Origin: an uncultured Lachnospiraceae bacterium | GTDB lineage: Bacteria; Bacillota; Clostridia; Lachnospirales; Lachnospiraceae | DNA: 15,494 bases | NCBI GenBank assembly: GCA_949283905.1 | Contig: CASDUB010000195.1 | Span: forward strand, 1 to 15,494 | Direction of reading: 5' to 3' | Shown here: positions 885 through 15,494 of the stretch, one piece after another | Numbering within the stretch: position 1 is the first letter of the stretch | How the letters are laid out: each line of letters starts with the position of its first letter | Translations under genes and position numbers: made by a program | Notes under the pieces: generated by a model | Told to the model about the DNA's origin: nothing | The model's input: the letters and a program-made list of their open reading frames with translations, nothing else | Database searches by the model: none

Positions 885-2267
885 TCATACTGCAGTATAA
901 CGCGATTTTTTTCTCTTTTCCATAACTTTAATAAAATTGATCACAAAGTCGGGATTTGACGGATAGTATAAATGAGGAAAGCCCCAAAAATGATCGTCTC
1001 CCTCATGGATACAGTTCCAATGCCTGTCAGAAGCAGGCTTTTTAGCGACGCAGCTGTCGCCGTTGTCCGATGAATCATAATAGTGAAATTCATGAGCCCT
1101 TATGCAGCTTTCTTTTTTCAAAAAAACAGGCTCCTTTTCCGTGATATTTATATATCCGAATCTTACAAGTTTTCCTCTGTTTTCAACGTCGGCTTTTATG
1201 ACTCCGGCCATTTCATATTTTGCGCCGTCGGATGCGAGAATATTTTCATGAAGATACATAAAGCCGCCGCATTCAGTAAGGGAAGGCAATCCGTCTTCTA
1301 TCGCCTTTTTTACGGAATCTCGCATCGATATATTATCCCTTAACCCCTTTAAGTACAGCTCGGGATACCCGCCTCCCAACAAAAGGCCGTCGGCGTCACC
1401 GGGGATTCTTTCATCATGCAGCGGCGAAAAATATCTGATTTTTACTCCCATTTCTTCAAACATCCTGATATTCGCGTCATAATAAAAGCAGAACGCCTCG
1501 TCTCTTGCGACAGCAAGGGTAAGATTCGATTCCGGGCACACCACATTTTTTTTCTCTTCAAAATCCTCCTTCAGTTCTTCCGCTGCCTTTGCGATCCTTA
1601 TTATATGCGAAAGATCGCATGTCTCTTCAAACTGACGCGCCGCTTTTTCAAGACGTTCCTCCATCTGCGCCGTTTCGTTCGGAAGCTTAAGTCCCAGGTG
1701 TCTGCTCTCAATGACAAGATCCTCTCTCTTCGGATAGTATCCGAGCACCGGAACGGACAGCTCTTTTTCAAGAACAGGCTTTATCATACCGTAAAATGAA
1801 GGCGTTATCCTGTTTAATATGATACCCTTTATCAGTTTCTCTCTGTCAAAATCGAGAAATCCCTTTATGAGGGGAAGCATCGATCTGCTCATTCCATGGG
1901 TGTCTATAATAAGGATTATCGGCGTTTTTGTAAGACAGGCGATCTCATAGGCGCTTCCCTTTTCGTTTTCAACGCTCTGTCCGTCGAAAAGTCCCATAAC
2001 GCCCTCTATCACCGCTATGTCATGATTCTTTGCCGTCTTTACAAAAAATCCTTCGGTTTTGTCTTCTCCGAGAAAAAAAGAATCTATATTTTCGCATTCC
2101 AGTTTCTGTACATTTCTGTGAAACATCGGATCTATATAATCAGGCCCGCATTTGTAAGCCATGACATTTTTACGCATATTTTTTAATGCGCCCAAAAGAG
2201 CGCATGTAAGGAGTGTTTTGCCGCTTCCGCTTTTCGGCGCGGCTACGAGTACTCTGGGAATCTTCAT
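885..2267 (-). CDS. cbiA: cobyrinic acid a,c-diamide synthase CbiA
   Basis: CbiA uses glutamine and ATP to amidate the a and c acetate side chains of cobyrinic acid in the cytoplasm. The protein has an N-terminal ATPase domain with a P-loop, KSGSGKT at residues 12-18, and IEGVMGLFDG near 88-97. A C-terminal class I-like amidotransferase domain contains LLLGGGYPELY near 295 and the nucleophile Cys333 in TECGGFMYL. The 460-residue length is normal. An ATG 30 bases further upstream (2297) is possible, but I chose 2267: it lies one base after the TGA of the cbiJET gene, has a strong AAGAGGA site at 2273-2279, and starts at the usual family N-terminus (MKIPRVLVAAP). It acts after CbiC and before CobQ. 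No key residue is missing. Confidence 0.95.
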   Translation of the reverse strand: MKIPRVLVAAPKSGSGKTLLTCALLGALKNMRKNVMAYKCGPDYIDPMFHRNVQKLECENIDSFFLGEDKTEGFFVKTAKNHDIAVIEGVMGLFDGQSVENEKGSAYEIACLTKTPIILIIDTHGMSRSMLPLIKGFLDFDREKLIKGIILNRITPSFYGMIKPVLEKELSVPVLGYYPKREDLVIESRHLGLKLPNETAQMEERLEKAARQFEETCDLSHIIRIAKAAEELKEDFEEKKNVVCPESNLTLAVARDEAFCFYYDANIRMFEEMGVKIRYFSPLHDERIPGDADGLLLGGGYPELYLKGLRDNISMRDSVKKAIEDGLPSLTECGGFMYLHENILASDGAKYEMAGVIKADVENRGKLVRFGYINITEKEPVFLKKESCIRAHEFHYYDSSDNGDSCVAKKPASDRHWNCIHEGDDHFWGFPHLYYPSNPDFVINFIKVMEKRKKSRYTAV

Positions 2268-2268
2268 A

Positions 2269-4320
2269 TCAATCCTCTTTGTCTGTGTTTTTCTCAAAGG
2301 AACATATCCATATCGGATTTTCCGCCTGAAGCATCCTGTAACTTCCGACAGGTTTTGTTCTTGTCACCGCCACCTGAACCAGTTCATAGTCGGTCACGTC
2401 AAATTCTTTTTCTATACTTATAAGTTCCTCAAAGGTTTCGAGACTTACTGCGTTGGCGCATATCCTGACATTGCCTGTCTTTTCAAAGATCTTCTTCAGG
2501 ATATCCTTCATATTTCCGCCCGTTCCGCCGATAAATACGTGAGTCGGCGCTTCAAGGTCGTCAATGCCGTCAGGCGCGAAGCTTTCAATCACATGAATAT
2601 TTGAAAGCCCGTTCTTTTTCGCATTTTCCTTTATGAGTTCAAGCGCCTCCTGTTTTCTTTCCAAAGCGTAAACCTTTATATCAGGAGAAAGGCGTGCGAT
2701 TTCAACAGCTACAGAACCCGTTCCGCTGCCTATGTCATATACTACCGAATCTCTTCTGAGTCTGAGTTTGGAAATACTTATTTCCCTCACCTCTTCTTTT
2801 GTCATCGGGACTTTTCCTCTGATAAATTCCGAATCATTGAGTCCGTGAGAGGCAAACGGACTTTTGGCATCTTCGTTTATCACAAACAGCGAATAAAGGC
2901 CTTCTTTCTTTATCTTAACGCACTCCCCGGGTGTCAGGATCGATATTTCCTGCTCAGGATAAGACATCTGATATCCCGCTATGATCTTCACATGCTCAAG
3001 GCCGCATTCGATAAGCTCTCTTCCTATGTTGTTCAGATCTTCCGCTCCCGATAAGAGCATAAAAGTTTTTTTATTCGTACGAACATTATAAAGAAATTTT
3101 CCCGCCCAGTTTTCAAATGCGCCTTTTCCGTGTACGCTGAAGATCTTTGCGTCATCCCAGCTTATGCCCGTAAGCGCGGAAAGATATGAAACCGACGAAA
3201 TTCCCGGATATATTCTAATATCGGCGTTATTTTCTTTTTTCAGTTCTTCGTAAAGCTTCGCCGTTCCGCTGAAAAAGCCTGTATCGCCTGAAAACAGAAT
3301 CGCAGCGTCCTCCTGCGTTTTTTTCAAAACAGGCATTATGTCTTTCGCAAGGTAATACGGATAAATTTCTTTTGCTGCGGCTCCATCATCAGAAACGATG
3401 CCGGATATAAGGCGCTTCGCACCGAATATGATGCCTGCTTTTGAAACAGCCTTAATGGCCTCCCGGGTAAGAGTTTCCGGGCTTCCCATTCCGCATCCGA
3501 TCAGACTTATGATGCGGTTTCTTTTTCCTGTATATTTGTTTAATTCTTCAGTAACCTGATCAAAAGAAAGACCCTTTGAATTTTCCGGTCTGCCTATCAG
3601 GTACATGTCGGCGTTTTCAAGATACGCCGCCTCTTCCTTTTCAAAATATCCGCCGCTTTTGCCGCTGAGTTTTGAAACGATTATCTTTATGTCGTATGCT
3701 TTTATTATCGCTCTGTTCATCTCGACCGAAAACGGTCCCTGCATCGCGATTATCTGTCTGCCCGGCAGATTATTCTTTTCGCATATCTCAATACTTTCTT
3801 TTCCCGGAAGAACGCGAACGATCAGTTTCTCTCTTAAATCCTTATCGGCGCAGTAAACAGACAGCTCTTTGCTGCCTGTCGTAATAAGTATATTTCCATG
3901 TATATCTTTCGCCTTTTTTATCAGAGCTTCGGCGCATCCTTTAGCGTCATTAAAATAATATTTATTAACTCCGGAAATGTTTGACCTTGTTTCTTGCGAT
4001 CCGGTATCTTCAAAATCGCGCTCAAGTCTTAAATATCTTACGTTTTTTTCTGCCGCCGCTCTTTTTATGTTTTCTGTCGCCTCTTTCGCATACGGATGAG
4101 TCGCATCTATCACGATCTTTGTATTATTATCAGTCATAAATCCGATCATTTCTTCAGTATCCATCCGTCCCATATGTACTTTCGCGCACGGATGATCGTT
4201 CAAAACCTGTTCTCCATAGGCAGTTGCGACGCACAGACCATGCTCCGTGTTTCGTTCACAGAGCCATTCTGACAATCTTCTTCCTTCGCTTGTTCCCGCA
4301 AATAAAAGTATTCTGCTCAT
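2269..4320 (-). CDS. cbiJET: trifunctional CbiJ-CbiE-CbiT fusion (cobalt-precorrin-6A reductase / precorrin-7 C5- and precorrin-6B C15-methyltransferase)
   Basis: This 683-residue chain carries three enzymes. Residues 1-260 are a CbiJ/CobK reductase: N-terminal ILLFAGTSEGRRLSEWL, IDATHPYAKEAT near 71-82, TTGSKEL near 147-153 and MQGPFS at 193-198. Residues 268-475 are a CbiE tetrapyrrole methylase with LIGCGMGSPE at 273-282, LFSGDTGFFSGTA near 342-354 and YPGISSVSYL near 371-380. Residues 490-680 are a CbiT methyltransferase with RGKVPMTKEEVR near 501-512, the SAM-binding motif YDIGSGTGSVAVE at 528-540 and FIGGTGGN at 596-603. CbiJ reduces cobalt-precorrin-6A, CbiT methylates C15 and decarboxylates ring C, and CbiE methylates C5, so the chain covers three successive steps. 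CbiE-CbiT fusions are common; the added CbiJ is less usual. There is no stop or frameshift at either junction. It starts three bases after the cbiH stop codon, so translation is probably coupled. Confidence 0.93.
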   Translation of the reverse strand: MSRILLFAGTSEGRRLSEWLCERNTEHGLCVATAYGEQVLNDHPCAKVHMGRMDTEEMIGFMTDNNTKIVIDATHPYAKEATENIKRAAAEKNVRYLRLERDFEDTGSQETRSNISGVNKYYFNDAKGCAEALIKKAKDIHGNILITTGSKELSVYCADKDLREKLIVRVLPGKESIEICEKNNLPGRQIIAMQGPFSVEMNRAIIKAYDIKIIVSKLSGKSGGYFEKEEAAYLENADMYLIGRPENSKGLSFDQVTEELNKYTGKRNRIISLIGCGMGSPETLTREAIKAVSKAGIIFGAKRLISGIVSDDGAAAKEIYPYYLAKDIMPVLKKTQEDAAILFSGDTGFFSGTAKLYEELKKENNADIRIYPGISSVSYLSALTGISWDDAKIFSVHGKGAFENWAGKFLYNVRTNKKTFMLLSGAEDLNNIGRELIECGLEHVKIIAGYQMSYPEQEISILTPGECVKIKKEGLYSLFVINEDAKSPFASHGLNDSEFIRGKVPMTKEEVREISISKLRLRRDSVVYDIGSGTGSVAVEIARLSPDIKVYALERKQEALELIKENAKKNGLSNIHVIESFAPDGIDDLEAPTHVFIGGTGGNMKDILKKIFEKTGNVRICANAVSLETFEELISIEKEFDVTDYELVQVAVTRTKPVGSYRMLQAENPIWICSFEKNTDKED

Positions 4321-4323
4321 ATC

Positions 4324-5061
4324 TTATCTTCTCTCTGATGGATATCCTCTTTTTGTTACAAGTTTTCCGTCGATTATCTCTGCTGTGGAATTTCCTATAA
4401 ACACTGTGGTAAACATGTTTACTTTTTTATCACGCAGTTCTTTTAATGTACAGACCGTGTATTTTGTGCCGTCACGTCCTATATTTTCCACATATCCGCA
4501 GCATCTGTCAGGCTCTATTTCTCTTAACAGGATGTCGCAGGCCCTCTGCAGGTAGTCGTGGCGTTTTTTGCTGGAAGGATTGTAGATCGCCATAGCAAAA
4601 TCAGCCTGTGCCGCAAGCAAAAGCCTTTTTTCTATCTTCTCCCAGGGCGTTAAAAGATCGCTTAAACTTATAACGCAGAAATCATGGTTAAGGGGCGCTC
4701 CCAGAACTGCCGCCCCGCTTGAAGCCGCCGTAACTCCCGGTACGACTTCAAGTTCGCACTCAGGATATGATTTTCCTATCTCATACATAAGCGAAGCCAT
4801 TCCGTATATGCCTGCGTCTCCCGAACAGATTAGGGCGACTTTCTTGCCCTTCATCGCTTCCTCATAGCACATGACGCACCTTTTTTCTTCCTGAAGCATC
4901 GGCGTGGACATAAGCTCTTTATCTTTAAGATCGTCTTCCAAAAGCTCAAGGTATACGGTATATCCTATTATGGTATCGCACTGTTTTAAAACTCTCAGCG
5001 CCTGTCCCGTCATCATCTCTTCTTTTCCGGGACCTATTCCGACTACATATATTTTATTCAT
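4324..5061 (-). CDS. cbiH: cobalt-precorrin-3 / cobalt-factor III C17-methyltransferase CbiH
   Basis: CbiH transfers a methyl group from SAM to C17 and drives ring contraction, giving cobalt-precorrin-4. The 245-residue length is usual for the family. Tetrapyrrole-methylase signatures are present: VVGIGPGKEEMMTGQA at the N-terminus, CSGDAGIYGMA at 79-89, VVPGVTAASSGAAVLGAPL near 106-124, and the CbiH/CobJ hallmark MAIYNPSSKKR. That last motif and the LSDLLTPW segment separate it from CbiF, CbiL and CbiE. The ATG overlaps the last 8 bases of cbiG, implying translational coupling. No accessory C-terminal iron-sulfur domain is present. Confidence 0.95.
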   Translation of the reverse strand: MNKIYVVGIGPGKEEMMTGQALRVLKQCDTIIGYTVYLELLEDDLKDKELMSTPMLQEEKRCVMCYEEAMKGKKVALICSGDAGIYGMASLMYEIGKSYPECELEVVPGVTAASSGAAVLGAPLNHDFCVISLSDLLTPWEKIEKRLLLAAQADFAMAIYNPSSKKRHDYLQRACDILLREIEPDRCCGYVENIGRDGTKYTVCTLKELRDKKVNMFTTVFIGNSTAEIIDGKLVTKRGYPSERR

Positions 5062-6187
5062 ATGATGTTAATCTCCATTCTGTTTTAGCTATGGCAAGAG
5101 TTATTCCGTTTTCAGCCTGTTTACGCAGAACAAGACCGCTGTCCATATCAAACTCTTTGCCGCATCCTGCCGCTGCCGCCCTTTCCGAAACGCATCCCAC
5201 GCCGACTTTATTCAACACAAAATCGCTTTCTGAAAATTCACCCGGTATTTTATTTAAATCTTCCGGCGTGAAAGTTTCAAAAGGCACGTTCAGCTCATCC
5301 GCAAAGGCTTTCAGGCCTTCTTCATCTTTTTTCAGATCAACCGAAGTTATCTTTCTGATCTGACGTTTATCTATATGAAGACTTTCAAGTAATCCCCCTG
5401 CAAACGATCCGATCTCTTCTTTTGTTTTACCTCTCCTGCATCCGATACCGAGAACATATACTTTCGGCAGCAGATACAGCTTCGCGTTTATTTCCGGTTC
5501 GCCGTTTTCTGAAACGCCGAAGTTTCCTATATAAACATCAAAATCCTTCTTTTCCGGACCGCGATTTTCCGTCAGATAAATTCTAACGCCGTTATCTTCA
5601 AGTATCGCCGCGTCTTTTTCATCTAACCGGCACAGACTTGTATCTATAAGTATACCGGCAGTTTTGCCGTCAAGAATCTTCGACGATACTTTCGCTATGC
5701 CGTCTTTATTGTAAATCACAAGATCGTTTTTCTTAGCGAACAGATCGATCGCAAACTTATTGTTTATGTCAGTCGATGTGGTTATGACAGGAACAGCTTT
5801 CACGATATCGGCTATCATACGCGCCGTCTCGTTCGCTCCGCCTACATGGCCCGAGAGGATCGGTATGACAAAACGCGCCCTGTCGTCCATAACGATAACG
5901 GGACTGTCGATCAGCTTGTTCTTAACGCATCCCGCTATCGCTCTTACCGCTATGCCGGCGGCTCCTATAAAAAGGATCGCTTCATTTTTTTCAAACCGTT
6001 CTTTCGCCCAGTCGTCAAGAGCATACTCAACGTATCTGACATCGGGATCTGCAGCGCAGTTTTCTTTAAGGGCGCTGCATTTGCAGAAGCACGACAGTTC
6101 AAGTTCCTGATTCTGACCGCAAGTTTTTTTCAGTTTTTTCATCTGCTCATATCCGTTCTTTGTAAAGCATATAACAGACAATATCAT
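5054..6187 (-). CDS. cbiG: cobalt-precorrin-5A hydrolase CbiG
   Basis: CbiG opens the delta-lactone of cobalt-precorrin-5A and releases the C20 carbon as acetaldehyde, a step found only in the anaerobic pathway. The 377-residue protein shows the central signatures GAAGIAVR at 75-82 and SGHVGGANE at 112-120, and the C-terminal CbiG domain starts near YVLGIGCRRGKTKEEI (244-259). An ATG at 6283 would add 32 residues, but that extension overlaps the C-terminal coding part of cbiF in another frame and does not look like CbiG. The ATG at 6187 gives the normal N-terminus (MILSVICFTKNGYE) behind a G-rich stretch (AGCGGGGGAAA, about 6193-6203). It follows the terminal stop of the cbiF reading frame (6210-6212) by 22 bases. 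Confidence 0.93.
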   Translation of the reverse strand: MILSVICFTKNGYEQMKKLKKTCGQNQELELSCFCKCSALKENCAADPDVRYVEYALDDWAKERFEKNEAILFIGAAGIAVRAIAGCVKNKLIDSPVIVMDDRARFVIPILSGHVGGANETARMIADIVKAVPVITTSTDINNKFAIDLFAKKNDLVIYNKDGIAKVSSKILDGKTAGILIDTSLCRLDEKDAAILEDNGVRIYLTENRGPEKKDFDVYIGNFGVSENGEPEINAKLYLLPKVYVLGIGCRRGKTKEEIGSFAGGLLESLHIDKRQIRKITSVDLKKDEEGLKAFADELNVPFETFTPEDLNKIPGEFSESDFVLNKVGVGCVSERAAAAGCGKEFDMDSGLVLRKQAENGITLAIAKTEWRLTSYE

Positions 6188-6209: not shown

Positions 6210-6998
6210 TTAAATATTATATGAGTTGTCCGGCAAATAAGGCTCTCCTGCTTTGCGAAATTCCGTCGAAAAATCCGCAGCATATAATCTCGATTTGCTG
6301 TAGCCCGAATTCGACACGGCGTCCCCCACGAGAATAATGGCCGTTTTTGTTATGTTGTGCTCTTTAGCCGTTTTTTAAAGAGTCTCAACGGTACATATGT
6401 AATTCTCCACTTCGGGCCATGTCGCCTTGTAAACAATAGCAGCCGGAGTATCCGGCTCGTACCCGCCTTTTATAAGACGCTCACTCAGTTCTCCGAGCAT
6501 GCCTGCGCTCAAATATATAGCCATCGACGCGTGGTGCGCCGCGAAGCTCTCTATCGATTCCTTCTCGGGAACGCCTGTCCTCCCCGCCATCCTTGTAATA
6601 ATAAGCGACTGAGAAACATCCGGAAGGGTATACTCAAGATTTAACGAAGCGGCGGCTCCGAACGCCGCGCTGACTCCCGGAGTAGTCCTGTACTCAATGC
6701 CGAGTTCATCCAGCACGTCCATTTGCTCGCGTATGGCTCCGTATATGCTGGCGTCTCCGGTATGAAGGCGCACAGTCATCTTTTTTTCGGCCTCCGCTTT
6801 TTTTATTACATCCAGCACTTCTTCAAGGGTCATATACGCGCTGTTATGAATCTCGCAATCTTCTTTAGCATATTCTAGAAGCTGTGGATTTACGAGGGAT
6901 CCCGCGTATATTATCACGTCCGCTTCCTTTAAAAGATTCATGCCCCTTACAGTTATCAGATCTACAGCGCCCGATCCCGCGCCAACAAAGTTAACCAT
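6210..6998 (-). pseudogene. cbiF: cobalt-precorrin-4 C11-methyltransferase CbiF, interrupted by an in-frame TAA
   Basis: CbiF methylates C11 of cobalt-precorrin-4. Codons 1-207 encode a good CbiF: VNFVGAGSGAVDLITVRG at the N-terminus, RLHTGDASIYGAI near 77-89, the segment around TTPGVSAAFGAAASL, ITRMAGRTGVPE, and IVYKATWPE near 188-196. A TAA follows at 6375-6377. The same frame then continues for 54 codons to a TAA at 6210-6212, encoding an ordinary CbiF C-terminus (NITKTAIILVGDAV, then SRLYAADFSTEFRK). Aligned from memory with Bacillus CbiF, the stop replaces exactly one residue, so the intact gene would have about 262 codons. The start has a strong AAAGGAGC site (7005-7012) and overlaps cbiD by 37 bases. 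If the stop is real and not read through, the product lacks the end of the SAM-binding domain and is probably inactive. A sequencing error is possible. A 207-residue CDS at 6375-6998 is the literal open frame. Confidence 0.85.
6375..6377 (-). other. in-frame TAA codon inside cbiF
   Basis: On the minus strand the codons read GAG ACT CTT TAA AAA ACG GCT AAA, and the frame is unchanged on both sides. A single A-to-T change in an AAA (Lys) codon, or a change of CAA or GAA, would create this TAA. TAA is the normal terminator of several neighbours (cobQ, cobS, cobC, cbiG, cbiH), so the genetic code is not altered. Gaining or losing a base in the adjacent A run would not restore the reading frame. 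Confidence 0.95.
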
Positions 6999-8101
6999 TT
7001 TTCCGCTCCTTTACTCTTTGCAAGTTCTCCGTATTTTTCCGAATATATCACGCATTCGATCTCTGTCTTTCTTCCTGCTCTTTTCCTGAGATAAAACATT
7101 ATCTTTTCCATAAGATAATTCATTACCGCGTCTTTTTTATTCTCCTCATCGATCAGACGGATCGCCTCGTCAGTCATCACACAGTCAAGGATCTTTCTGC
7201 AGGTATCCGGCGATACATTATTCGCCAGAGCAGCTGCCGCCATTATCTCCATCCTGCAGTCGCCTTCCTTTGAATGGGTATTCATGATGCCTCCTGCAAC
7301 TTTAACGAGCTTTCCGATATTTCCCGCCAGAAGTATGCTTTCAAATCCCATTTCAGCGGCCATATCTATGGCGGCTCCTATATAGTTACTGCACTTTACG
7401 CTTTCATCTATATCATACCCATACGCTCTTTTCAGAAAATCGCGTCCGTAATTTCCCGGTGCTATCGCAGCGCATGTTTTTCCGAGAGCCTTTTGCTGAC
7501 ACAGTTCAACCTTGATCGTATCAATGATAGCCTGAGTGCTCATAGGCTCCACTACACCGCTTGTTCCGATAACGGATATGCCGCCTTCTATCCCGAGTCT
7601 CGGATTAAAAGTATCTTTGGCAAGCTCCTCGCCTTCGGGTATGCTTATGATAACGTTCACTCTTCCGTGAAAATCAGCCAGGCGGCAGACTTCCGTTACT
7701 TCTTTTGTTATCATCTCGCGGGGCACACGGTTGATTGCGGCGTTTCCCACAGGCTGATCAAGACCGGGCTTTGTCACTCTTCCGACTCCTGCTCCACCGT
7801 CTATGACCACTTCTATATCAGAATCATTTTTTACTGCCGGCTCTTTTGCTGTTTCCGATATCGAAACCTCGGCAAATACATGAGCGCCTGTAGTAACGTC
7901 AGGGTCGTCGCCGCCGTCTTTAATGACGGCGCATGAAACTTTGTCTTCGCCGCGTTTTATATCTGTGATATGCGCCTCATACAATATACCCTTCGGCGTC
8001 ATGATTGAAATACTGTTTTTTTCCGTTCCGAATAAAAGCATATACACGGCCGCTTTTGCCGCTGCCGCCGCGCAGCTTCCGGTTGTAAAACCATGTCTCA
8101 T
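6962..8101 (-). CDS. cbiD: cobalt-precorrin-5B C1-methyltransferase CbiD
   Basis: CbiD methylates C1 of cobalt-precorrin-5B with SAM and, like CbiG, marks the anaerobic pathway. The 379-residue length matches the family. Recognisable parts are the N-terminal LRHGFTTGSCAAAAAKAA-like stretch (residues 1-18), the VDGGAGVGRVTKPGLDQPVG region near 98-117, the segment with GTSGVVEPMSTQAI, and IGKLVKVAGGIMNTHS. The ATG overlaps the stop of cbiC (ATGA at 8098-8101). Its last 37 bases overlap the start of cbiF in another frame, so the ribosome binding site of cbiF lies inside this gene. No irregularity is seen. Confidence 0.96.
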   Translation of the reverse strand: MRHGFTTGSCAAAAAKAAVYMLLFGTEKNSISIMTPKGILYEAHITDIKRGEDKVSCAVIKDGGDDPDVTTGAHVFAEVSISETAKEPAVKNDSDIEVVIDGGAGVGRVTKPGLDQPVGNAAINRVPREMITKEVTEVCRLADFHGRVNVIISIPEGEELAKDTFNPRLGIEGGISVIGTSGVVEPMSTQAIIDTIKVELCQQKALGKTCAAIAPGNYGRDFLKRAYGYDIDESVKCSNYIGAAIDMAAEMGFESILLAGNIGKLVKVAGGIMNTHSKEGDCRMEIMAAAALANNVSPDTCRKILDCVMTDEAIRLIDEENKKDAVMNYLMEKIMFYLRKRAGRKTEIECVIYSEKYGELAKSKGAEKWLTLLARDRAL

Positions 8102-8742
8102 AAACGTTCTTTCCCAAGTTCATATAATACGGCGTTGCAAATGGCCGCCGCCACATTGCTTCCGCCTTTTCGTCCTCTGTTGATTATATACGGCACGTCA
8201 GAATCTATAAACAGCTCCTTTGAAGCTTCAACATTTACAAATCCCACCGGAACTCCTATTACAAACGCAGGCTTCCAGTCTGTTTTTGTCATCAGTTCAT
8301 AAATACTGATAAGAGCCGTCGGCGCGTTTCCTATAGCAAATATAACAGGCTTGCTGATCTTTGAAGCGTGCTCCATGCTGACGGAGGCTCTTGTCACTCC
8401 TCGTTTTTTTGCTTCGGATGCTATATCGGGATCAGCCATAAAGCAGTGGGCTTCGCCTCCGAATGACGCCAGGACTTTTTTATTGATTCCCGTAAGGGCC
8501 ATATTTGTATCTGTTACTATATCAGCGCCGTTTTTTATCAGCTCTTTTAAAATATTTACGGCGTTTTCCGAATATGTGAGGGTCTTCGCGTAATCAAAAT
8601 CGGCGCTGGTATGAATAGCCCTCTTAGTTATCATCGCCTGATCTTTTGGAAGGACTATTCCCCTTTCGTCCAGTTCTTTCTGTATTATCTCAAAACTTCT
8701 TTTTTCTATATCTTCAGGTCTTACAAATTCTATATTTTTCAT
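8098..8742 (-). CDS. cbiC: cobalt-precorrin-8 methylmutase CbiC
   Basis: CbiC moves the C11 methyl group to C12, turning cobalt-precorrin-8 into cobyrinic acid. The 214-residue protein has the catalytic His44 in AIHTSADFDYA, the TDTNMALTGINK segment near 98-109, and the conserved C-terminal FVIGVPVGFVNVEASKE followed by RGRKGGSNVAAAICNA. It is linked by ATGA overlaps on both sides, to cobD upstream (8739-8742) and cbiD downstream (8098-8101), so the three genes are probably translationally coupled. Length and motifs are normal. Confidence 0.95.
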   Translation of the reverse strand: MKNIEFVRPEDIEKRSFEIIQKELDERGIVLPKDQAMITKRAIHTSADFDYAKTLTYSENAVNILKELIKNGADIVTDTNMALTGINKKVLASFGGEAHCFMADPDIASEAKKRGVTRASVSMEHASKISKPVIFAIGNAPTALISIYELMTKTDWKPAFVIGVPVGFVNVEASKELFIDSDVPYIINRGRKGGSNVAAAICNAVLYELGKERL

Positions 8743-9791
8743 ACGTATCCTTTTATTATTTCCTGTATTTCGGATATAAGTCTCTTGTTTTCTTTTTCTG
8801 TTTTAACAGCGATCCTGAAATATCCGTCTTCAAGATTTCTGTAATCGGAGCAATCTCTTATCAGGACACCTCTTTTAAGCAGTTTCGTGTAAAGATTTGT
8901 TTTCAGATTCCGATGCCTTATCAGCAAAAAACACGTATCTGAGGATGTCACATCAAATCCCATACCGGTCAGGCTCTGTTCAAGATAAGAGCGCTGATCT
9001 TTTATAAGTCTTCTCGCATTTTCCAGATACGGCTCGTCCTTTAAAAGATCGATCGCCGATGCTCCCGCAATCTGAGCCATAACAGAGATGTTCCATTCGG
9101 GAAGCCTGTCTTTTATCGAGTCAAGGAGTTCTCTGCCTGAACATACGAGATATCCGAGACGCACTCCCGGTATCGCAAAACTCTTCGTAAAAGCCCTCAG
9201 TATGCAAAGATGCGGATATTTTTCATACCTGCCTAAAAAAGAATTTTTTTCAGGCTCGTCGCTGAGTTCCATAAAACATTCGTCGAGTACAACCGCCGTC
9301 TGCTTTTCTTCGCATCTTTTTATTATCTTTTCAAGCAGCGCGCCATTTATATATTTTCCCGTCGGATTATTCGGATTTGTCAGAAATAAAATATCGATAT
9401 CATCTGTTATCTTTTCTGTAATGTCTTCGGTGATTTCAAAATCACCCTTCATTTTATATTCAATTATCTTGCCACCTGACGCTTCTATCGCTTTTTCATA
9501 TCCCTTAAAGGAAGGAACAGGCAAAAGTATCTTTTTTGGAGTCAGCGCGCTTATGACAGCCGTGATGAGTTCCGAAGCGCCGTTGCCGAATACGATATTT
9601 TCCCTTTTTACCGAGATAATCTCAGAGAGCTTTTGTCCCAGTTCCTGAATCTCGCTGTCGGGATAATACTCGAGTTTATCTATATTTTCGATTATGCTTT
9701 CTTTAATTTTTTCATGTACGCCTAAAGGATTGAGATTGACTGAAAAATCAAGTTCGACGCTGTTTCTGTAGCGGTCTCCTCCGTGAGCCAT
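8739..9791 (-). CDS. cobD: L-threonine-O-3-phosphate decarboxylase CobD (PLP enzyme)
   Basis: CobD decarboxylates threonine phosphate to (R)-1-amino-2-propanol O-2-phosphate, the linker that CbiB attaches to the corrin ring. The 350-residue protein is a class I/II aminotransferase-fold enzyme closely related to HisC. Visible signatures are the N-terminal AHGGDRYRNSVELDFSVNLNP, which favours CobD over HisC, FGNGASELI near 68-76, TNPNNPTG at 138-145, Asp170 of LDECF, and the PLP lysine Lys203 in FTKSFAIPGVRLGY. It lies directly after cbiB, whose enzyme uses its product. The start is supported by a very strong GGGGAGG site (9799-9805). A HisC role cannot be excluded from sequence alone, but context strongly favours CobD. 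Confidence 0.93.
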   Translation of the reverse strand: MAHGGDRYRNSVELDFSVNLNPLGVHEKIKESIIENIDKLEYYPDSEIQELGQKLSEIISVKRENIVFGNGASELITAVISALTPKKILLPVPSFKGYEKAIEASGGKIIEYKMKGDFEITEDITEKITDDIDILFLTNPNNPTGKYINGALLEKIIKRCEEKQTAVVLDECFMELSDEPEKNSFLGRYEKYPHLCILRAFTKSFAIPGVRLGYLVCSGRELLDSIKDRLPEWNISVMAQIAGASAIDLLKDEPYLENARRLIKDQRSYLEQSLTGMGFDVTSSDTCFLLIRHRNLKTNLYTKLLKRGVLIRDCSDYRNLEDGYFRIAVKTEKENKRLISEIQEIIKGYV

Positions 9792-9811: not shown

Positions 9812-10777
9812 TCAGATCAATATCAGTATCGCCATTATGAATAACGCTGCCGCTGCGCTTATAACGGCTGTCAATATCATAAGTCTGTTTATTTTTCTGA
9901 TATCATTGTATTCGACTTTTTTTAAGGCGTCCCCTATAAATTTCTTTTTATGGAGAACTCCGAAATACACGGCGTCTCCGGCAAGCTGTATGCCGAGAGC
10001 TCCCGCCGCGACGCTTTCCGTCTGGGCGGAATTCGGACTCGCATGATTAAATCTGTCTCTTAAGTATATCCTGACGGCATTCTTCGTCCTGTATCCTTTT
10101 CCCATAAACAGTGAAGCGAAGATCATCATCCATGCGCTCACTCTCGAAGGTATAAAATTCACTATATCGTCAAGCTTTGCGGCTGCCGTGCCAAACCGCA
10201 TATACCTGTCGTTTTTATATCCCACCATCGAATCCATAGTATTTATCGATTTATATAAAAAGCCGAGAACCGGCCCTCCTATAGCCGTATAGATAAGAGG
10301 CGCGATCACGCCGTCTGATGTATTTTCCGCAACCGTTTCGATTGCTGCTTTAGCAATTCCTATATCGTCAAGCACATCCGTATCGCGGCCGACTATCATC
10401 GATACAGCACGTCTTGCCTTTTCAATGTCATTTTCTTCGAGGGCATGACATACTTTCATGCTCTCTTTGCAAAGAGAATGCGCCGCGAAGATATAATACG
10501 TCAGAACAGCTTCCACGATAACGCCAAAGATAACGTTTATAAGATATGCTCCCGCCGTAATCAAAAATGCAGCAGCCGTTGTGATAACAGTAACGAGAAC
10601 GACCAGCAGCACGCCTTTTTTGAACGCTTTTTCGCTATCCGGATCCTTATTAAGTTTTTTATCAAAAAAAGCGATCATGTTTCCTATCAGTCTGATCGGA
10701 TGAGGCATACTGTGGGGATCGCCTATGATCAGATCGAGAATAAATCCGATAAGAAACGATATCATATGGTAAAGCAT
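9812..10777 (-). CDS. cbiB: adenosylcobinamide-phosphate synthase CbiB
   Basis: CbiB is an integral membrane enzyme that joins aminopropanol phosphate to the f propionate of adenosylcobyric acid, giving adenosylcobinamide phosphate. The 321-residue protein begins with a hydrophobic helix followed by the family motif GDPHSMPHPIRLIG at 19-32, has the ETVAENTSDGVIAPLIY signature at 147-163, and contains several more hydrophobic segments (about 55-100, 155-175, 215-235 and the last 20 residues). The start at MLYHM has a GGGAGC site with good spacing. It sits 17 bases after cobC and 20 bases before cobD, the source of its co-substrate. Length and motifs are normal. Confidence 0.95.
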   Translation of the reverse strand: MLYHMISFLIGFILDLIIGDPHSMPHPIRLIGNMIAFFDKKLNKDPDSEKAFKKGVLLVVLVTVITTAAAFLITAGAYLINVIFGVIVEAVLTYYIFAAHSLCKESMKVCHALEENDIEKARRAVSMIVGRDTDVLDDIGIAKAAIETVAENTSDGVIAPLIYTAIGGPVLGFLYKSINTMDSMVGYKNDRYMRFGTAAAKLDDIVNFIPSRVSAWMMIFASLFMGKGYRTKNAVRIYLRDRFNHASPNSAQTESVAAGALGIQLAGDAVYFGVLHKKKFIGDALKKVEYNDIRKINRLMILTAVISAAAALFIMAILILI

Positions 10778-10794: not shown

Positions 10795-11379
10795 TTATAT
10801 TTTTCGGTAATCATTTAAAATAATATTTCCGTCTTCATAAGACAGATTAAGCTCGTATCCGTGTCCGTTTTTGATCATAAACGAAAAATAATCTTTATCC
10901 GATACTGAACTCAAGACCGCCATAAACGTGCCTCCGTGAACTGCAGCCGCCACGTCGGTCAGATTGTTTTTTTCACATATATCGAGAAGCCGATGCATTC
11001 CGCGCATCGTTCTGGCTATAAATTCACGTTTGTCTTCGCCGTTTGGAAATCTCACTTCTGCGTTGCTGTCTATCCACGACTGATACTCGGGATTTCCGTA
11101 AAGCTCTTTGTGATTTCTCATTTCAAAATCACCGAAGTTCATTTCTTTGAACTCTTCTATTATGACAGGATTCTCTTCTCCGAAAACAAGTTCCGCCGTC
11201 TGCATACATCTTTTCAGCGGACTTGAAAAAACTGCCTGCGAGCCGATTTTTTCGGGATAAGTCTCTTTTAATTCGCGAACTCCCTGCTCGCACAGAGGCG
11301 CGTCAGTCCATCCCAAAAATCTTCCTTCCAGATTCGGCTGTGTAATGCCGTGTCGTATAAGTTTGATCGTTATATTCAT
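10795..11379 (-). CDS. cobC: alpha-ribazole-5'-phosphate phosphatase CobC (histidine phosphatase family)
   Basis: CobC-type enzymes remove the phosphate from alpha-ribazole phosphate or from cobalamin phosphate. The protein belongs to the histidine phosphatase superfamily: catalytic His10 in IKLIRHGITQPN, the FSSPLKRCMQTAEL segment, the acid-bearing FKEMNFGDFE stretch, and the second catalytic His in AAVHGGTF. An ATG at 11403 would add eight residues, but the start at 11379 forms an ATGA overlap with the previous gene and has an AGGAGT site (11389-11394). The resulting 194 residues are normal for CobC. Phosphoglycerate-mutase-like proteins have many roles, so the assignment relies partly on its position among cobU, cobS and cobT. 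Confidence 0.87.
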   Translation of the reverse strand: MNITIKLIRHGITQPNLEGRFLGWTDAPLCEQGVRELKETYPEKIGSQAVFSSPLKRCMQTAELVFGEENPVIIEEFKEMNFGDFEMRNHKELYGNPEYQSWIDSNAEVRFPNGEDKREFIARTMRGMHRLLDICEKNNLTDVAAAVHGGTFMAVLSSVSDKDYFSFMIKNGHGYELNLSYEDGNIILNDYRKI

Positions 11380-11705
11380 TTGATCTTTACTCCTATCCCG
11401 CAAGTTACTCTGATCACTTCATCCGCAAGAGCCGCCGCTTTGCATTGAAGACGTCCCAATTTTTTTCTGAAGGCCCTGGCCTCTTCGTCCGCAGGCACTA
11501 TTCCGCATCCTATTTCATTTGATATCACTATAAGGTTTGGATCTTCGGATATCATTTTTTTCAGAATATCAAGAGGCTCTTTTCCCTGTCCGAATATTTC
11601 TTCAGCCCGGTCATCCAGATAAAAAATATGATCCCGGGCATCCTTAAATCTGTTATTTGCGTAATCACGCTTTCCCTGCGAATAACCGCCGATTATAAAA
11701 ATCAT
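11376..11705 (-). CDS. short CobU-like protein (cobinamide kinase/guanylyltransferase family)
   Basis: This 109-residue protein is a reduced homologue of CobU. It keeps a modified P-loop, GGYSQGKR at 6-13, where the usual Ser/Thr after the lysine is Arg, and the C-terminal CobU block with ISNEIGCGIVPADEEARAFR (61-80) and the ending GIGVKIK. It lacks the middle part of normal CobU, including the region of the guanylylated histidine. A full-length CobU is encoded two genes upstream, so this is a paralogue and not the only copy. Short CobU-like proteins with a GGxxQGK loop occur, as far as I recall, in other Clostridia. It starts immediately after the cobS stop (TAAATG) and overlaps cobC by ATGA. 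Its activity is unknown; a kinase-only or regulatory role is inference. Confidence 0.8.
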   Translation of the reverse strand: MIFIIGGYSQGKRDYANNRFKDARDHIFYLDDRAEEIFGQGKEPLDILKKMISEDPNLIVISNEIGCGIVPADEEARAFRKKLGRLQCKAAALADEVIRVTCGIGVKIK

Positions 11706-12482
11706 TTACAAAACCCCGCTTATTACAGATACGGCTGCGGCCGTCAAAACCATCGCCGTTTCACTTAACACAACGAAAAATCCCGCCGTGTCTCCCGTTA
11801 TTCCTCCAAAATTTTTCATGCTCATCTTATAATAATAAATAAATACGATCAGGCATACAACAGTCATCGCGATTCCCGCCAACGGATTCATTATGATCAT
11901 AAAGGCCGAAGCAGCCGCCGCTTCTATAATAAGAAAAAGCACGACTGTTTTTTTCGCATTGTCGGCCGATCTGTTAAAGGTGTTGAGCATTCCTTCTTTT
12001 TTCGCATTCGGAAACAGATAGATAGCGGTCCCGCTTAAGGCTCTCGACAGCACGAATCCGCCGGCAAGCGAAGCGATCACTCCCGCTGAAACTTCAGATA
12101 CCGCCGCCATATAGATAAGGCCGAGAACTGCGAGCATTATAACGGCAAACGCTCCTACATGAGGATCTTTTAATATTTCCAGTTTTTCTTCTTTTGATTT
12201 ATATGATCTTAAAGCGTCCATCGTGTCCATATACCCGTCCACGTGAAATCCGCCTGTTATAAGGAGCGGAATGGCCGTCATGATAAGGACAAACGCGGTT
12301 TTTCCGATATTAAATTCAACACAGATAAAATTCCAGAGAACCGTCAGAGCGCCGATAACAGCGCCTACCCACGGAAAAAATATGACCTGATACTTCATCT
12401 CTTTTTCTTTCCAGTCAAAATGCGGCACCGGAATTTTAGAATATATCGCAAACGCGATAAATAAAGCCTTAAAAAACGACAT
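11706..12482 (-). CDS. cobS: adenosylcobinamide-GDP ribazoletransferase (cobalamin synthase) CobS
   Basis: CobS is the membrane enzyme that joins adenosylcobinamide-GDP and alpha-ribazole (or its phosphate) to form adenosylcobalamin or its phosphate. The 258-residue protein has the FAIYSKIPVPHFDW N-terminal segment, the catalytic acidic motif GGFHVDGYMDTMDAL at 77-91, KDPHVGAFAV near 105-114, and multiple hydrophobic helices to the C-terminus, including GGITGDTAGF. Its start overlaps the end of cobU by 14 bases, and an AGGAG lies ahead of the ATG. Length and key residues are as expected. Confidence 0.95.
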   Translation of the reverse strand: MSFFKALFIAFAIYSKIPVPHFDWKEKEMKYQVIFFPWVGAVIGALTVLWNFICVEFNIGKTAFVLIMTAIPLLITGGFHVDGYMDTMDALRSYKSKEEKLEILKDPHVGAFAVIMLAVLGLIYMAAVSEVSAGVIASLAGGFVLSRALSGTAIYLFPNAKKEGMLNTFNRSADNAKKTVVLFLIIEAAAASAFMIIMNPLAGIAMTVVCLIVFIYYYKMSMKNFGGITGDTAGFFVVLSETAMVLTAAAVSVISGVL

Positions 12483-13035
12483 GGCTCTTTGTCTCCTGTT
12501 TAATATTCAGCGGTATTCCCGCGACAGTTTCCCATACTTCGTCAGCCGTCTTTGCCAAAAATGAATTTATCTTTCCGAGGGCGCGGATATATGAAAGCGT
12601 GATTTCATCATAAGGTACGCCGTCATCGAAAACATTGTTGGATACAATGACAAGCTCCTTAAGTTCTTTGTCAATCTCACTTATCTCTGCGGATATCTTA
12701 TTGACAACATCTTCTTCCGAAACGACTTTTCCGTCTTTAAACATCTCGTTCGCAGCAAGATTTGACATGCACTCCAAGAGCGCTGCGCTTCTGGTGCCGT
12801 TTTCAATCTTCTTAAGACATTTTACTATATCTTCAGACTGTTCGACAGTCACAAATCCCTTTCCGGCGCGCATCTTTCTGTGATCATTAACGATCTTTTC
12901 CTCCTGCGCGCCGTAAACCTTCATGGTCGCAAGATAATACATTTTAAGATTTTTCTCTTCGCTTATCTCTTTTATCTTTTTTTCGGCAAAAGCAGATTTT
13001 CCGCTTCCGCTTCCTCCCAAAACAAGAATCATCAT
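12469..13035 (-). CDS. cobU: adenosylcobinamide kinase / adenosylcobinamide-phosphate guanylyltransferase CobU
   Basis: CobU phosphorylates adenosylcobinamide and transfers GMP to adenosylcobinamide phosphate, giving the GDP-activated form used by CobS. The 188-residue length is normal. It shows the P-loop GGSGSGKS at 7-14, IVNDHRKMRAGKGFVTVE (48-65) with His52 in the place of the guanylylated histidine, LLECMSNLAANE at 86-97, and VSNNV near 131-135 corresponding to the VSNEVG block. The start is ATGATG; the ATG at 13035 overlaps the cobT stop and the one at 13032 would be one residue shorter. A second, short CobU-like protein lies downstream. Confidence 0.92.
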   Translation of the reverse strand: MMILVLGGSGSGKSAFAEKKIKEISEEKNLKMYYLATMKVYGAQEEKIVNDHRKMRAGKGFVTVEQSEDIVKCLKKIENGTRSAALLECMSNLAANEMFKDGKVVSEEDVVNKISAEISEIDKELKELVIVSNNVFDDGVPYDEITLSYIRALGKINSFLAKTADEVWETVAGIPLNIKQETKSHVVF

Positions 13036-14105
13036 TTATCCTCAAATCGTGTATACTGCTCGATCGCCAGATCGTCAAACGACAGCTGTTCTTTAAAGAT
13101 TGAAAGCGCCGTATCGCAAAGCTGACAGAACATGACGGCGCCGGTTCCCTCGCCGAGCGCCATTTGCGCATCGATCACAGGCTTTATCCCGAGTTCATTT
13201 AGCACGAGGGCGGCCGCCGGCTCTTTGCTTATATGAGATCCGAAAATATAACTCTTCACTTCTTTAAACATCTTTACGGCGCAAAGAGCGGCTACAGAAG
13301 ATATCACTCCGTCTATTACAACAGGCATCCTGTAATACGCTCCGCCTATCATGACTCCCGCCATTCCGGCGATATCAAATCCGCCGACGCAGGCCATCAC
13401 GTCAAGTACATTTTTATTGTAGAGATCGTATTTTTTAATCGCCTCGTCTATGACTTTTTCTTTTTTCATCAGTCCGCTTCTGCTGAGACCCGAACCTTTT
13501 CCCGCGGTAATTGCCGCCGGCACTTTTAAAAGAGAAGCAGCCACGGCTGCGCTCGTCGTCGTATTGCCTATGCCCATCTCTCCGGTGCACAGTACTTTGT
13601 ATCCGTTTTTTCTGGCGTATCCTGCCATCTCTATTCCGGCTTCGATCGCCGCAAGAAGTTCTTCCTTTGACATGGCAGGTTCTTCGACAAAATTTTTTGT
13701 TCCTTTGGCAATCTTTTTGTCTGTCAGTCCGTTGAACTTTTCATCGGTATTGATCCCTATGTCTACCGGAAAGACCTGTATGCCGGACATTTTCGCCATT
13801 TTACATACAGACGATGTCTTTTTAGCCATCGCTTTGGCTACGGCAAGAGTAACCTCCTGACCCGACTGGCTGATGCCCTCCTTTACGACTCCGTTATCGG
13901 CGCACATAACTATAACGGCTTTTTTAGAAATGTCGATATTTTCATCTTCGAGCACTGCGCCCATTTTCGACAACACTTCTTCAAATATTCCGAGGGAATC
14001 TATAGGTTTCGCCACAGCGTCCCATTTTGATTTTATCAGACTGTACAGTTCATTTTTCGGCTCGCTTAAACAAAGTTCGCCCGAAAGGAGTTTTTTTATG
14101 ATCAT
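13032..14105 (-). CDS. cobT: nicotinate-nucleotide:dimethylbenzimidazole phosphoribosyltransferase CobT
   Basis: CobT transfers the phosphoribosyl group of nicotinate mononucleotide to the lower-ligand base, making alpha-ribazole phosphate. Visible motifs are KPIDSLGIFEE near the N-terminus (base-binding region), VMCADNGVVKEGISQSG, GEMGIGNTTTSAAV, VGGFDIAGMAG and the catalytic glutamate (Glu319 from this start) in LGEGTGAVMF. The frame is open upstream to an ATG at 14138, but ATGs at 14108 and 14105 lie behind an AGAGGAA site and give the usual 357-358 residues; I chose 14105 for its better spacing. The end overlaps cobU (ATGA). No lower-ligand (bza) genes are in the window, so the ligand cannot be told. 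Confidence 0.93.
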   Translation of the reverse strand: MIIKKLLSGELCLSEPKNELYSLIKSKWDAVAKPIDSLGIFEEVLSKMGAVLEDENIDISKKAVIVMCADNGVVKEGISQSGQEVTLAVAKAMAKKTSSVCKMAKMSGIQVFPVDIGINTDEKFNGLTDKKIAKGTKNFVEEPAMSKEELLAAIEAGIEMAGYARKNGYKVLCTGEMGIGNTTTSAAVAASLLKVPAAITAGKGSGLSRSGLMKKEKVIDEAIKKYDLYNKNVLDVMACVGGFDIAGMAGVMIGGAYYRMPVVIDGVISSVAALCAVKMFKEVKSYIFGSHISKEPAAALVLNELGIKPVIDAQMALGEGTGAVMFCQLCDTALSIFKEQLSFDDLAIEQYTRFEDK

Positions 14106-14118
14106 CATTTCCTCTTTC

Positions 14119-14137
14119 TGACACACTTGCTGCGTCA
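14119..14137 (-). other. small inverted repeat in the cobQ-cobT gap
   Basis: The minus strand has TGACGCA GCAAG TGTGTCA, a seven-pair stem with one G-T pair and a five-base loop. It lies in the 47-base gap between the cobQ stop and the chosen cobT start, just ahead of the cobT ribosome binding site. No run of T follows, so it is not a standard terminator. It could affect mRNA processing or initiation, but a stem this short can occur by chance. Confidence 0.3.
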
Positions 14138-14152
14138 ATGACGGTTTTCTCT

Positions 14153-15494
14153 TTAATCTGCTCTATAATCAATATGCGCTTCCGATAACATTTCATATAT
14201 GGCTTTCATATCCATATTTTTTCTGATTATATCCGCAAGCCTGTCATATTCGCGTTCTTTTAATATGTCGTAATCGACGACGGCGCCGCCTGAAAGCTTA
14301 ACGCCCTTTTTATCGGCCAACGCTTTAACTATCTCAGAGGCTATGCAGCCTTTGTCAAATATAGAATGGATGTAAGAGCCGTATATATTTTTATTCTGAA
14401 CCACTTCAGGAAGCTCTTTGCTGCAGCACTCGTCCGCCGGCACAGTTCTTCCCATGTGGATCTCATATCCGGCAAATTCCATACCTGAGATCTTTTCAAA
14501 TATACCCGACAGAGCGTTGATCTTTCCTGTCGTCTGCGCTCTCGTCTTTTCAGGCAAAAGAGAAGTATTTACGGGAAGCATCTGCATTCCGCGCATGACT
14601 CCGCCCTCCTCGACGCCCTCGGGATCTTCGATCATATTTCCGAGCATCTGATATCCGCCGCAGATACCGAATACGGGTATCGACTCCGAAAGTTTCTTAA
14701 CAGCCGCTTCCATTCCCGATTCACGCATCCATTTCAAATCTCCCATCGTATTTTTGCTGCCCGGAAGCATTATCATATCCGGTTCCTTCAGATCGGCAGG
14801 ATCGTTCACATAACGCACCGTCACGCCGTCTATCTGTTCAAATACATTAAAATCGGTAAAATTCGAGATCCTCGGATACCTGATGACGGCTATATCTATC
14901 AGCCCGGTTTTCTTTCTGTAAAATCTCTCTGTCAGGCTGTCTTCATCTTCAAGTTTCAGCTCCGTATAAGGAACCACTCCCACGACAGGCGTTTTTCCTC
15001 TTTCTTCGAGCATCACTATCCCTGAATCAAGCAGAGATGCGTCTCCTCTGAATTTATTTATCACAAGACCCTTTACTCTCTTTTTTTCATCCTCTTCCAG
15101 GAGCATCAGCGTGCCGAGAAGCTGCGCGAATACGCCGCCCCTGTCGATATCTCCCACAAGGATCACAGGTGCATCGACAAGCTTTGCAAGCCCCATATTT
15201 ACGATATCGTCTTTTTTCAAGTTGATCTCTGCCGGGCTTCCGGCTCCCTCGATCACTATGATATCGGCCATCTTTTCCAGTTTGTTAAACGCCTTTATGA
15301 TCTCAGGAATCAGAGTTTTTTTATACGCGAAATAATCAGACGCGCTCATGTTTCCCAGGACTTCTCCGTTCACGATCACCTGGGAACCGGTATCATTCGT
15401 CGGCTTTAAAAGTATCGGATTCATGCAGACGTCCGGCTTTACTCCCGATGCTTCTGCCTGCATGACCTGGGCGCGTCCCATCTCAAGTCCGTCT
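14153..15494 (-). CDS. cobQ: adenosylcobyric acid synthase CobQ/CbiP (5' end cut by window edge)
   Basis: CobQ (CbiP) amidates side chains b, d, e and g of adenosylcobyrinic acid a,c-diamide using glutamine and ATP. The visible part is 446 codons. An internal ATG at 15481 is not the start: the frame stays open to the edge and upstream codons encode DGLE ahead of [11 protein letters not shown], which matches the family, so roughly 40 N-terminal residues including the P-loop lie outside. Counting from that internal Met, [16 protein letters not shown] is at 73-88, [11 protein letters not shown] at 109-119, [12 protein letters not shown] at 238-249, the amidotransferase nucleophile Cys274 in [18 protein letters not shown] at 339-345, and the catalytic His372 in [10 protein letters not shown]. 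It is the first visible gene of the operon; any promoter or riboswitch lies upstream of the window. Confidence 0.95.

Follow-up and report, generated by a model that had tools for sequence, protein, structure and literature searches.

Why is cbiF interrupted by a stop codon within a cluster of unbroken cobamide genes, and does this stop exist in the cell or only in the assembly? The window, that is, the whole stretch of DNA analyzed here (15,494 nucleotides), is the entire contig C195 of the draft genome G000, which counts 299 contigs and 1.79 Mb and is 82.6% complete. It belongs to an uncultured bacterium that its named relatives place in the Lachnospiraceae. The answer that we find reasonably likely is that the internal TAA of cbiF is one wrong base in the draft-assembly consensus. 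The locus itself consists of the following parts.

6378..6998, minus strand: cbiF body, 207 codons, cobalt-precorrin-4 C11-methyltransferase with a TP_methylase domain (TIGR01465, PF00590)
6375..6377, minus strand: in-frame TAA, codon 208 of cbiF (a stop here in none of 109 relatives' loci)
6210..6374, minus strand: cbiF C-terminal tail, 54 codons and a TAA (TIGR01465 profile positions 209-247; alignment)

The gene (6998-6210, minus strand) begins with an ATG at 6998 and runs for 207 codons up to a single in-frame TAA at 6377-6375. Past this codon the frame continues for 54 sense codons (6374-6213) and closes with a TAA at 6212-6210, leaving a gap of 22 bases to the ATG of cbiG at 6187. The first-pass annotation had given the TAA, the 54 codons, the end at 6210-6212 and the 22 bases, and the sequence reproduces each of them. 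The cbiF of the window lies in a cob/cbi cluster, and the TAA at 6375-6377 deprives it of a full-length open frame that includes the C-terminal segment. The body matches positions 1-206 of the 247 positions of TIGR01465 with 275.5 bits, the curated cut-off being 259.65, and positions 1-210 of the 212 of PF00590. The tail takes up the same profile at position 209 and follows it to position 247, the match stopping at tail residue 40 of 54; a match spanning the stop reaches 320.3 bits, over the family cut-off. A frameshift in cbiF was considered and is ruled out, because body and tail share one frame and fall on adjoining profile positions; the earlier view of a single-codon event agrees with these matches in register. 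The tail had also been called a proper CbiF C-terminus, which is true for about 40 of its 54 codons and fails for the last 12 residues (6210-6248, minus strand, after FRKA), unmatched in the relatives aligned. The nearest CbiF proteins, P0002 to P0005, stop at residue 252, and the frame observed here is ten residues longer.

A second cbiF elsewhere in the genome, a check that the first-pass annotation had proposed, was not found by a family search of the 299 contigs (82.6% complete). The four other TIGR01465 matches in this genome are weak, at most 59.3 bits against the cut-off of 259.65, and correspond to cbiH and the cbiJ-E-T fusion of the window, to cbiL on contig C75 and to one match on contig C24.

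The other genes of the cluster are all encoded on the same strand, in the order (5' to 3') cbiP, cobT, cobU, cobS, a short CobU-like gene, cobC, cbiB, cobD, cbiC, cbiD, cbiF, cbiG, cbiH, cbiJ-E-T, cbiA, a gene for a small cysteine-rich protein and one for an S41-type peptidase. Those annotated here are listed below.

885..2297, minus strand: cbiA (cobyrinic acid a,c-diamide synthase), open frame (family profile, and relatives over about the first 380 codons)
2269..4320, minus strand: cbiJ-cbiE-cbiT fusion, unbroken (family profile and relatives)
4324..5061, minus strand: cbiH, unbroken (family profile and relatives)
5054..6187, minus strand: cbiG, unbroken (family profile and relatives)
6962..8101, minus strand: cbiD, unbroken, its end overlapping the cbiF start (family profile and relatives)
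8098..8742, minus strand: cbiC, unbroken (family profile and relatives)
8739..9791, minus strand: cobD-like aminotransferase gene, unbroken (family profile and relatives)
9812..10777, minus strand: cbiB, unbroken (family profile and relatives)
10795..11403, minus strand: cobC (alpha-ribazole phosphatase type), open frame (family match only)
11376..11705, minus strand: CobU-like protein of 109 aa (PF02283 positions 107-168 of 168)
11706..12482, minus strand: cobS, open frame (family match only)
12469..13035, minus strand: cobU, open frame (family match only)
13032..14138, minus strand: cobT, open frame (family match only)
14153..15494, minus strand: cbiP/cobQ (cobyric acid synthase), continuing past the contig end (family profile and relatives)

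The overlap between the cbiD end and the cbiF start is also seen in relatives. In a tblastn comparison with the open reading frames of 12 relatives' loci, counting matches above 45% identity, cbiP, cbiB, cobD, cbiC, cbiD, cbiG, cbiH, cbiJET and about 380 codons of cbiA were collinear and unbroken. The genes cobT, cobU, cobS and cobC lie outside the coverage of this comparison; all four are open frames matching their families, in keeping with the earlier suggestion that the salvage genes could still work. The 109-residue CobU-like protein matches just the last third of CobU, the longer cobU being located at 12469-13035. Elsewhere in the genome, cbiL is open on contig C75, and no CbiK match was detected in the 82.6% of the genome that is available.

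We then looked at the codon that the relatives carry at the site of the stop. A family search of 61 genomes gave 29 with a cbiF match above the cut-off, and only the match of the window's own genome contained an internal stop. Twenty-nine relatives' loci from this search were combined with 80 kept out of 189 from a second one, giving 109 loci with 105 distinct matched sequences. In none of the 109 is the codon at this site a stop, so that a stop common to the relatives is rejected; four loci show a stop within the match, each at the end of the gene. The codon is GCN in 61 loci, GAA or GAG in 13 and another one in 35. The residue had rightly been placed in a conserved stretch, but the interrupted position itself is variable. 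Comparison with closely related genomes, which had also been called for, shows a glutamate in the nearest ones: P0002, the nearest CbiF protein among those listed, is 96% identical, intact and carries a glutamate at the site, as does the closest relative by DNA (locus L035, the same as L025 of genome G004; 86% protein identity). No CbiF copy shorter than 220 residues was present among the best 120 of 7998 scored protein matches. However, since this database groups proteins at 90% identity, the cluster of P0002, which has three members, could conceal a shortened copy. A search with P0002 found no viral copies of cbiF. One further CbiF match, P0001, is unusually long (382 aa), its N-terminal part being duplicated, and is perhaps an assembly artefact.

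Judged from these alignments, the tail is more than a chance open frame. Compared with four of the nearest loci it is 71-79% identical, with pN/pS values of 0.12-0.25, to be set beside 0.11-0.16 for the cbiF body and 0.09-0.44 for other genes of the cluster; in all these comparisons synonymous sites are near saturation, which makes the decay test a weak one. Within this limit, relaxed selection past the stop, which only an old mutation would be expected to leave, is not visible, since the values of the tail fall within the range of the other cluster genes, and the tail without decay described earlier is what we also see. Among 142 columns conserved in at least 95% of 118 CbiF homologues, the window protein departs at two. 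P0002 has one of these departures too; the other is private to the window protein and is found at residue 197, eleven residues ahead of the stop. Three proteins of odd length (P0001, P0121 and P0123) were dropped from the conserved-column counts.

Are other genes of this draft genome split in the same way? We examined 80 of the 298 other contigs, which together with the window amount to 510,407 bases, 42,128 of them masked. The contigs were mostly taken at even number steps; C75 and C24 were added for their family matches, C194 and C196 as number neighbours of C195, and C135 was taken in at 20,000 of its 21,571 bases. The scan sought coding stretches in the same frame separated by one stop. 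Its thresholds were loosened to admit cbiF, as a stricter setting showed ispG and left the cbiF tail just under threshold, and the same loose settings were applied to the controls. Eighteen pairs were obtained, of which three appeared by eye to lie within one gene (cbiF, ispG and lexA) and 15 to be gene boundaries or noise; of the pairs other than cbiF, profiles were run on the ispG and lexA halves only.

On contig C135 (locus L124), ispG occupies 3021-4076 of the plus strand and is split by an in-frame TAA at 3441-3443; of the 343 positions of GcpE, the first half covers 1-134 and the second 137-342, in register. An ispG match is found in 29 of 31 genomes searched, and a stop lies inside it in G000 and in none of the other 28. 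The copy on C135 is the sole one detected in G000 (82.6% complete). Its stop stands where, with P0121 and P0123 left out, 114 of 118 homologues have a glutamate; the nearest listed protein is 96% identical and intact. At 201 columns conserved in at least 95% of homologues, ispG departs at four, three of them shared with its nearest relative. The IspG match P0121 is unusual for its length of 499 aa. IspG is normally essential in such bacteria. The MEP pathway is likewise given as essential in most bacteria in the available part of PMC11218510. In G000, ispH is present and the search of this genome found no match for HMG-CoA synthase, so a true loss of ispG would probably be lethal. With a normally essential gene, found in one copy, broken in the same assembly, a true loss of ispG seems unlikely, and at least one internal stop of this assembly is thus unlikely to reflect a true loss. 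Against this, the part of the genome that the assembly lacks could harbour a second ispG.

The third gene, lexA, is located at the edge of the same contig (1-399, minus strand). An in-frame TAG at 226-228 divides it into halves that match positions 2-54 and 59-111 of the 203 of the LexA profile. A lexA match is absent from three of the six congeners searched (G001, G002 and G005); lexA may therefore be dispensable and lends weak support to an error. A tblastn count of lesions over 13,198 aligned codons, which did not reach ispG, flagged 14 internal stops, cbiF alone being convincing by eye. The other 13 resemble shadow frames or the ends of genes, and the one case suggestive of a frameshift turns out to be the cobD/cbiC boundary. 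The same count flagged four stops in the control G005 and five in G002, none convincing by eye. An apparent TAA inside metH was rejected, because an 832-codon frame ends there.

The frequency of split genes gives no clear indication of error. The sample contains three in 139,632 unmasked codons. In the two congeners G005 and G002, with 190,290 codons from which masked bases were not taken out, the same scan gave one or two candidates plus a third that is doubtful (p = 0.32 with one control candidate, p = 0.66 with two). G005 yielded 17 pairs and G002 12, from which the candidates were chosen by eye. That of G005 consists of MntA/HepT pieces; in G002 (contig C1, locus L235, minus strand), a TGA at 11555-11557 parts a signal-peptide-like stretch from a 5'-nucleotidase/LysM protein. 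These two were checked against profiles; the doubtful one, in G005 (L233, 16294), is of low complexity. The rate of split genes is thus not clearly above that of two congeners, and the argument for an error rests on the kind of gene that is hit, namely ispG. Assuming that 4.6% of changes create a stop codon, the three stops would imply some 65 substitution errors in 139,632 codons, or 1.5 per 10,000 bases.

Taking these data together, the sequence error that the first-pass annotation had kept as an alternative now becomes the most likely reading, and a rather probable one, with ispG split in the same way. The biological loss of de novo synthesis that it had predicted for a real stop is not supported as first choice, since the only ispG detected in the same fragmented draft is also split by a TAA. 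According to the accessible text of PMC11017572, spurious internal stops arise from low coverage and from low read quality. We propose that cbiF would be an ordinary gene of the anaerobic pathway in an otherwise unbroken cluster, intact in most or all cells. Coverage at the stop would then be low and the reads would lack the TAA, and wrong consensus bases would be the simplest common cause of the cbiF and ispG stops.

On the other hand, a real and recent nonsense mutation, fixed or segregating, is a possibility to be taken seriously, even if we think it the less probable. CbiF would lose its last 40 or so matching residues and the strain would depend on the salvage of cobinamide or cobamides through cobU, cobS, cobT and cobC. 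Such a mutation would agree with a single-codon change, with the lack of any further lesion in the cluster genes compared and with a decay that is not visible. In a low-confidence model of P0002 (mean pLDDT 66), used for its secondary-structure outline only, the stop would interrupt the predicted helix 204-213, and the predicted strand 219-224 would be lost. If the mutation is real, the function of CbiF would probably be lost, as far as this model and the sequence indicate. Since cbiF is dispensable when corrinoids are supplied, a real loss is plausible, and partial cobamide pathways are common, with a figure of 17% of bacteria in the part of PMC6461909 at hand. However, with a like stop in the sole detected ispG, the stops of this assembly are not necessarily real; cbiL and the remainder of a long cluster are still open, and the best 120 of 7998 protein matches include no shortened copy. 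One could also assume that the 207-residue product is a functional short CbiF. It keeps nearly all of PF00590 (1-210 of 212) and passes the TIGR01465 cut-off by itself (275.5 against 259.65 bits). Yet the part lost holds columns invariant in 28 homologues (I216, T219, A220, G225, Y233, S236, L238, Y239 and F243), these being the ones aligned out of 119 listed intact matches other than P0001. The 4e16 chain also includes this segment, and a 207-residue form is missing among the same best 120 matches, so that we hold a functional short form for scarcely credible.

If a leaky context or an ochre suppressor tRNA allowed readthrough of the TAA often enough, full-length CbiF and IspG would be made. 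Both stops stand where the nearest relatives have a glutamate and both are followed by AAA, although with two cases we give the AAA no weight; the purifying pattern of the cbiF tail, in a weak test, would fit as well. We nevertheless consider readthrough very improbable. Of the 369 long open frames in the sample whose stop is visible, 212 end in TAA, which thus works as a terminator, and 0 of 109 relatives' loci have a stop at the cbiF site. A stop anticodon was absent from the tRNAs read, an incomplete set obtained from 18 covariance-model matches genome-wide, with ARAGORN giving a gene at 17 of these 18 loci, and from the sampled contigs. Glutamate to TAA is moreover the commonest single change making a stop with this codon usage (13%), so two such sites are unremarkable. 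A related conjecture, to which we attach hardly any belief, is that partial ochre suppression lets the strain tolerate TAA-AAA at the relatives' glutamate sites in cbiF and ispG, with full-length proteins made at a reduced level.

The significance of the stop in cbiF is mainly that of a caution. The case of ispG illustrates that, without the reads, no metabolic claim should be built on one internal stop of a draft genome. A family search would still score cbiF as present, and since the body alone passes the TIGR01465 cut-off, presence/absence tables could count it so, while a strict pseudogene caller would deny B12 synthesis to this lineage. A real mutation would provide a small and recent instance of a Lachnospiraceae losing corrin synthesis.

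A parallel can finally be drawn with known systems. Within the CbiF/CobM family (TIGR01465, PF00590; PDB 4e16, 1cbf and 2cbf), the body and tail of this cbiF match in register and the gene order cbiC-cbiD-cbiF-cbiG-cbiH is that of the relatives; the gene differs from them by the in-frame TAA at codon 208 and about 12 unmatched terminal residues. Like the cobinamide salvagers covered in the available portion of PMC6461909, the strain would still have working nucleotide-loop genes; unlike them, as they lack all or most corrin-ring genes, it has one gene broken by one codon. The spurious pseudogenes of assemblies, in what is accessible of Cooley and Wright 2024 (PMC11017572), offer the same picture of internal stops in draft-genome genes that are conserved and otherwise free of decay, with the difference that here the stops are known from the assembled sequence alone. 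The cbiF of the window is thus an ordinary gene, its cluster is ordinary as well, and its one internal stop is an event of a known kind.
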